Source: a bacterium
Lineage (GTDB): Bacteria > Patescibacteriota > Gracilibacteria > Peribacterales > Peribacteraceae
Assembly (NCBI GenBank): GCA_027623015.1
Contig: JAQBVR010000006.1
Coordinates: 1-50,111, forward strand
Length of the DNA: 50,111 nucleotides
Reading direction: 5' to 3'
Part shown: in pieces, positions 48,457 to 49,180 of the stretch
Numbering within the stretch: position 1 is the stretch's first letter
Layout: the number at the start of each line of letters is the position of its first letter
The notes under the pieces: model-generated
Database searches by the model: none
What the model was told of the DNA's origin: nothing
The model's input: only the letters and a program-made list of their open reading frames with translations
Position numbers and translations under genes: made by a program

Positions 48457-49124
48457 CTATCTTACTCTTGCCATCATCTCATCTAATTGGTTCTGCATTG
48501 TGCTTTCAGGCATCTTGAAGAAATCGAATGCATCATACAATGGCTTTGTAAGCTTGTGCACAAACTCAGGCAATTGATCCTGTAAATGGAGAGCATCGGG
48601 AATCACTAAATCAGAGCGTATTTCATCTTGCTGAGATTTGCGCTCCCAATGAAGAGGACCAATACGCTGATTTGTACTGATTAGTGTTCTGTCTTTGATT
48701 CCCTTCCATATCACTGTAACCCTCATCTCCCTGGTTTCCTCGGGTGAAAACTCTTGTGCAAATCTCATGCCATGTAGCAGGAATTCACAAATCCTCCAAA
48801 CTGGTAAAGTAAAATCAATGGCTTTACCTTCATGTTTTTTCTTAGTTCCCCATTCCTCCGAGTCTTCTTGATGCCCTCTTGCCAGCGCAAATTTACCGTT
48901 GGGTGAGGCTCTCCAAAAATCGTTGAAGCCAGGGTCTTTGCCTAGATAACCAAACCAGGCTTCGATATTATTTTTGTAAGGATATGGCTGCCCTTCATGT
49001 TCAGGGTACAGTCCAACTGGCCATCCCGTTTCACGTCCAACGCAGCTTCTTCCTGAGTCAGGCCGTGCTCCTCTCTCAATTCTTTCAGCCGTTTTGCCAG
49101 TTTTGTAGTTATTGTTGAAGCCAT
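48457..49124 (-). pseudogene. Frameshifted HTH protein (XRE-like N-terminus, long C-terminal domain)
   Basis: From the ATG at 49124 the frame gives a helix-turn-helix-like start, KLAKRLKELREEHGLTQEEA, and then stops at 48942. A second frame is open from 49155 to 48457 (over 230 codons) but has no ATG, GTG or TTG before the ATG at 48768. Its content becomes protein-like from about 49035: GLYPEHEGQPYPYKNNIEAW, FWRASPNGKFALARGHQEDS, DFTLPVWRICEFLLHGMRFA, and PLYDAFDFFKMPESTMQNQL. The simplest reading is one gene broken by a -1 frameshift near 49030-49050. The ARGHQEDS...LPVWR stretch resembles the region after the DNA-binding domain in some AlbA_2/Schlafen-like proteins; this is from memory and unsure. 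Confidence 0.55.
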
Positions 49125-49156
49125 CCAGGTGATTATCCTGACTGTCAGTTGCTATT

Positions 49157-49180
49157 TACACCGTCATATGTGACGGTGTA
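49157..49180. promoter_or_regulatory. Perfect 10-bp-arm palindrome upstream of the HTH gene
   Basis: TACACCGTCA-TATG-TGACGGTGTA. It lies 33 nt upstream of the HTH start codon at 49124, where an autoregulatory operator would be expected. It also lies 34 nt upstream of the ATG at 49214 on the plus strand, so it could control both directions. Confidence 0.6.

Follow-up and report, generated by a model that had tools for sequence, protein, structure and literature searches.

The locus at positions 48457-49155 on the minus strand of the 50,111-nucleotide window (the whole stretch of DNA that was analysed) is most likely a chimeric gene remnant, i.e. a pseudogene left as the scar of a deletion or fusion, as judged by sequence comparison. 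Two different homologies abut at about position 49041, parts are missing on both sides of the join, and the 3' part has no start of its own. The gene of a resident short XRE regulator would have been severed behind codon 28, and the remaining 5' stretch fused in another frame to the 3' portion of an unrelated gene, which probably encoded an AlbA_2 protein with an unnamed C-terminal domain. The likely cause is an illegitimate deletion within a region of mobile or defence type; we infer that the break occurred in the cell and that the two genes had previously stood side by side. The locus would be expected to yield a 60-aa peptide that lacks the recognition helix, and the C-terminal fragment to remain untranslated, except from internal starts giving at most 103 residues.

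Two overlapping frames were present on the minus strand. The longer one, taken from the ORF list, was open from stop to stop over 232 codons (48457-49155), and a scan for ATG, GTG and TTG placed its earliest start at 48768, far inside the frame. The shorter one comprised 60 codons, with an ATG at 49124 and a TAG stop at 48944-48942. A sequence-only reading of the locus had described just these features, namely a frame of more than 230 codons without a usable start until far inside, and an overlapping frame with an ATG and an XRE-like HTH that ends early; both descriptions held. At the prevailing base composition, the chance of an open run of 232 codons was about 2.5e-6 per starting position. 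Because of this low probability and the clear protein homologues of the frame, it was not considered a product of chance. The passage from the short to the long frame is formally a -1 step. Translation with an alternative code in which TGA is read as a residue (tables 25 and 4) was tried and rejected, as the two frames were neither joined nor lengthened; the XRE frame ends in TAG and measured 69 codons from stop to stop under the TGA-reading tables, too. TGA served as stop in 5 of 33 long window ORFs, chosen by hand from the ORF list. In two same-class genomes, methyltransferase relatives contained in-frame TGA codons, eight in one case (G069:C8:28295-28789) and three in the other (G078:C1:156055-156549), and TGA is probably translated as an amino acid in both. 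Together with the 1.1-Mb size of the source genome, such codons would point to Patescibacteria.

The 5' fragment (49041-49124, minus strand) was assigned to codons 1-28 of an XRE/Cro-type HTH regulator gene by Pfam and by identity to two related genomes, G012 and G016, and contains helices 1 and 2 only. Residues 9-28 of the short frame matched positions 2-21 of the 64 positions of Pfam HTH_31 (PF13560) with an E-value of 7.6e-4 and 20.2 bits, a score below the 27-bit cut-off. With HTH_31 and HTH_3, the match was confined to the N-terminal part, the first third of these XRE profiles; a complete HTH including the recognition helix, as described by PF01381 and PF13560, is absent from the fragment. 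In a search of 59 relatives with E-values up to 1, the first 31 residues were matched in 24 genomes, its own included. The best matches outside its own genome were found in G016 (70% identity over residues 2-28, E 3.5e-6) and in G012 (64%, E 1.1e-4), and both ended at residue 28. The regulator of G012, a genome of the same family, is complete with 69 aa (PF01381, E 8.8e-11). In a codon-by-codon comparison with this protein, 18 of the first 28 residues were identical, and the 14 that follow showed no identity. The last 32 residues of the short frame (48942-49040, minus strand, up to the TAG stop) are an out-of-frame tail.

The surroundings of the G012 gene (L071 4045-4254) support the deletion reading. 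In both genomes the XRE gene has the same divergent neighbour. In the window, this is an ORF on the plus strand that runs off the contig end (49265-50111) and matches phrog_9700 and other families of unknown function; in G012 it is a small gene whose C-terminal part matches that of the window ORF with 44% identity over about 60 residues. In the stretches fetched from the three other genomes with the neighbour gene (G025, G063 and G035), no XRE match was found. An intergenic inverted repeat is also common to the window and G012: a perfect 10-nt repeat lies in the window at 49157-49180, 33 bases upstream of the XRE ATG, and a perfect 9-nt repeat of different sequence occupies the corresponding site of G012 (L071 4289-4308). 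Both may be operators of the regulators. Whereas the window copy ends at codon 28, the G012 gene is complete and heads an operon (L071 1-4254, G012:C1) in which an N6/N4 DNA methylase, a HerA-like ATPase and an unnamed protein follow downstream. The last of these was named by no library and is possibly NurA-like. This XRE-methylase-HerA-like set is likely a defence operon; homologues of its methylase and HerA were not found in the genome of the window in a search run without positive control. The orthologous XRE of G016 (L074 3414-3581, G016:C46) matched that of G012 over residues 1 to about 56 only and then met a stop. It thus looks broken too, which supports the deletion reading as a sign that the locus has decayed elsewhere. 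A genome with both parent genes side by side was not found.

The 3' fragment (48457-49041, minus strand; 194 codons plus stop) was delimited by homologues, alignment, a domain model and the start scan. From 49041 on, the long frame corresponds to roughly the last 194 residues of an unnamed domain of about 230 aa, and its matches cover about the final 190 residues of larger proteins. Homologues of the domain were found in 38 plasmid records, 12 loci in named genomes and 4 loci in viral contigs. Pfam gave no family in the 232-codon frame, and neither Pfam nor NCBIfam nor PADLOC provided a name for the domain. It forms the end of phrog_38563 (function unknown), of which the window matches positions 273-460 of 464. 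Twenty loci were read individually (the 12 named-genome loci, the 4 viral-contig loci and 4 plasmid-record loci), 7 of them being one identical haloarchaeal sequence. In all 20, domain and upstream part lie in one frame, and the homologous frame extends at least 82 residues further upstream than in the window. According to alignment with the L016 model, this extension includes a predicted core strand and helix, and the window alignment begins after them. The residues after TGWP are present in the window; the first strand and helix are absent. No AlbA_2 domain lies in frame with the window domain, the XRE codons occupying the place of the upstream part. At first look the opening residues of the C-terminal frame resembled the rest of an HTH; this assignment was rejected, since they align to the domain family.

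From these alignments, the breakpoint at which XRE homology ends and domain homology begins was placed within about one base of 49041 (49035-49045, minus strand), with frames differing by -1. Both parents are complete elsewhere, the XRE gene in G012 and the domain proteins in the homologue loci, and both are truncated here. As both partners are cut at 49041, a one-base slip is insufficient, and a breakpoint is called for instead. The sequence-only reading had joined the frames by one -1 shift at about 49030-49050. The formal step and the position, about 49041, were borne out; such a shift would not supply the remainder of the HTH or the beginning of the domain.

The N-termini of the 20 loci were classified by eye as AlbA_2-type (12), XRE (7) and cut by a contig end (1). 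Five full proteins (L002, L010, L011, L012 and L013) were submitted to a first Pfam run: SLFN_AlbA_2 was above the cut-off in L010 and just below it in L012, HTH_3 was above the cut-off in L013 and below it in L011, and RelA_SpoT was found in L002 (631-2067). A later run detected SLFN_AlbA_2 in L034 and a sub-threshold Nuc_deoxyrib_tr in L039 (973-2157), which PADLOC matched to a TIR-labelled effector. HipA genes adjoin two of the XRE-type domain genes. At least four kinds of N-terminal part thus precede the domain: AlbA_2, an XRE linked to HipA, a RelA/SpoT synthetase and a part of nucleoside-deoxyribosyltransferase/TIR-like type. The haloarchaeal gene for the AlbA_2-domain protein was letter-identical, surroundings included, over 3.9 to 6.6 kb among records of Haloarcula, Halorussus and Halosegnis (L010, L017-L022), which indicates either a recently shared plasmid or contamination. 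Within the lineage of the source genome the domain is apparently rare, with one marginal profile match (E 0.005) in 352 other genomes of the same class and 3 of 378 other genomes of the same phylum at E 1e-4 or better. No match to the window domain was obtained in one search each of viral contigs and genome contigs, nor in phages by tblastn, and none to the L016 domain in viral contigs; a sequence-profile search of solved structures gave no match either.

The model of the L016 domain was confident (pLDDT 88.5, pTM 0.89) and opens with a strand (13-21) and a helix (29-39). Foldseek returned no confident relative of it (best E 0.025 in PDB and 0.003 in BFVD). In a VIA fold comparison, S-adenosylmethionine decarboxylases ranked at the top (Z 6.3, rmsd 3.4-3.7, 113 aligned); no function was drawn from this likeness because the Z value falls in the range that the tool calls common. 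In literature listings, general toxin-antitoxin papers came up and no paper combined all the terms sought. We propose tentatively, and with more doubt than belief, that the domain, uncharacterised and unnamed in Pfam and NCBIfam, is an exchangeable module that may serve for sensing or regulation in AlbA_2/Schlafen-like proteins, HipB-like XRE proteins beside HipA, RelA/SpoT-type synthetases and nucleoside-deoxyribosyltransferase/TIR-like effectors; the window would then hold one more, accidental joining, to an XRE start.

Among known proteins, the SLFN/AlbA_2 (PF04326) protein WP_011222445.1 of Haloarcula marismortui plasmid pHMA155 contains a domain 39.6% identical to that of the window over 191 residues. 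In AlbA_2 proteins with this domain, the AlbA_2 part is present and the domain begins with its first strand and helix; the window has neither. The HipA-linked (HipB-like) XRE proteins of Azospirillum brasilense and Sinorhizobium meliloti (L011, L013) resemble the window in that the domain comes after an XRE start, both on one strand. However, they consist of a single intact frame with a complete HTH and about 105 extra residues before the domain part, of which the window has none; their domain is only 30-33% identical to the window domain, and no HipA was recognised among the window neighbours. Two AlbA_2-linked copies (L010, L016) were 40-41% identical to the window domain, compared to 30-33% for XRE-linked copies; other AlbA_2-linked copies were also in the range of 30-37%. 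In a tree of 16 rows, the window grouped with L016, L010 and L037, all AlbA_2-linked, with support values of 80/93, below the mark for strong support, and on a long branch (1.81). Because of these identities and this placement, fusion of two genes appears likelier than loss of an internal stretch from a gene of the XRE-plus-domain type, although either may apply.

Near-invariant positions were defined as columns with at least 85% agreement among the other rows, target and window being excluded from the consensus. The window domain keeps 26 of 31 such positions, a greater loss than in any non-RelA homologue and a point in favour of a pseudogene. Eleven non-RelA homologues lose 0-4 each (31/31, 31/32, 29/31, 31/31, 30/31, 30/33, 29/31, 31/35, 31/31, 29/33 and 30/31 kept), and the RelA-linked homologue keeps 20/40. 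Long neutral decay of the 3' fragment is unsupported, because its 194 codons are free of stops; together with the conservation kept, this would suit a fairly recent break.

The main competitor of a pseudogene is an assembly misjoin, in which unlinked sequences would have been put together at about 49041, the two genes being intact in the real genome. The contig end is only about 1.1 kb from the join, the 1.1-Mb source genome is an assembly of 46 contigs, and the join is abrupt. On the other hand, neither half has a second copy in its own genome at the thresholds used, so that no repeat was found that could have misled the assembler, nor did the absent halves turn up in other parts of the assembly. 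We regard a misjoin as unlikely, although it deserves to be taken seriously. A single XRE-plus-domain gene broken by a one-base mutation or sequencing error was judged very improbable. The frames are indeed one base apart, and the architecture is real in Azospirillum, Sinorhizobium and Roseomonas; none of the homologues found has the junction of the window. In the XRE-domain proteins, about 105 residues separate the HTH start from the domain part (match from aa 136), and because these are absent from the window, where the number is 0, a one-base change cannot account for the join. The sequence-only reading, which had preferred a mutation or sequencing error to programmed recoding, was thus right about a broken gene and wrong about a one-base change, as material is missing on both sides.

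A reading in which the domain has its own start and forms a protein by itself, with the XRE fragment as a small ORF unrelated to it, seems hardly credible, even though independently started homologues, which the earlier reading had named as evidence against itself, apparently exist. In L035, L040 and L041 the domain is a separate ORF with its own ATG beside an AlbA_2 ORF; in the window, no in-frame ATG, GTG or TTG precedes 48768, and starting there drops nearly half of the fragment. In these three reverse-strand loci the AlbA_2 and domain ORFs are neighbouring, nearly overlapping and in different frames, and by coordinates read by hand the ATG of the domain ORF lies within a few bases of the AlbA_2 stop, with an ATGA overlap in L040. 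The unnamed domain can apparently be a separate protein, and the three loci appear to be split or fused versions of one system. Programmed -1 frameshifting, yielding a regulator with a C-terminal domain, was given practically no weight. A long open -1 frame does overlap the XRE frame, but a scan of 49125-48942 detected no slippery heptamer of the type XXXYYYZ, in line with the sequence-only reading, and no conserved frame pair was seen at such a junction in the homologues. A fusion made in this way would have neither the recognition helix of the HTH nor the first strand and helix of the domain. As the two homologies meet at 49041 with parts missing on both sides, a shift of frame would make neither the regulator nor the domain whole again.

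The locus is therefore ordinary in kind, a chimeric, frame-broken remnant. Read as a pseudogene it is of little importance, and cautions against taking every long frame that lacks a start codon and lies behind the beginning of an HTH for a case of recoding. The regulator locus is complete in one relative (G012) and broken in the source genome and in G016, as expected for mobile or defence-type regions. A by-product of the analysis is the unnamed domain with its four or more kinds of N-terminal partner, which merits a family entry.
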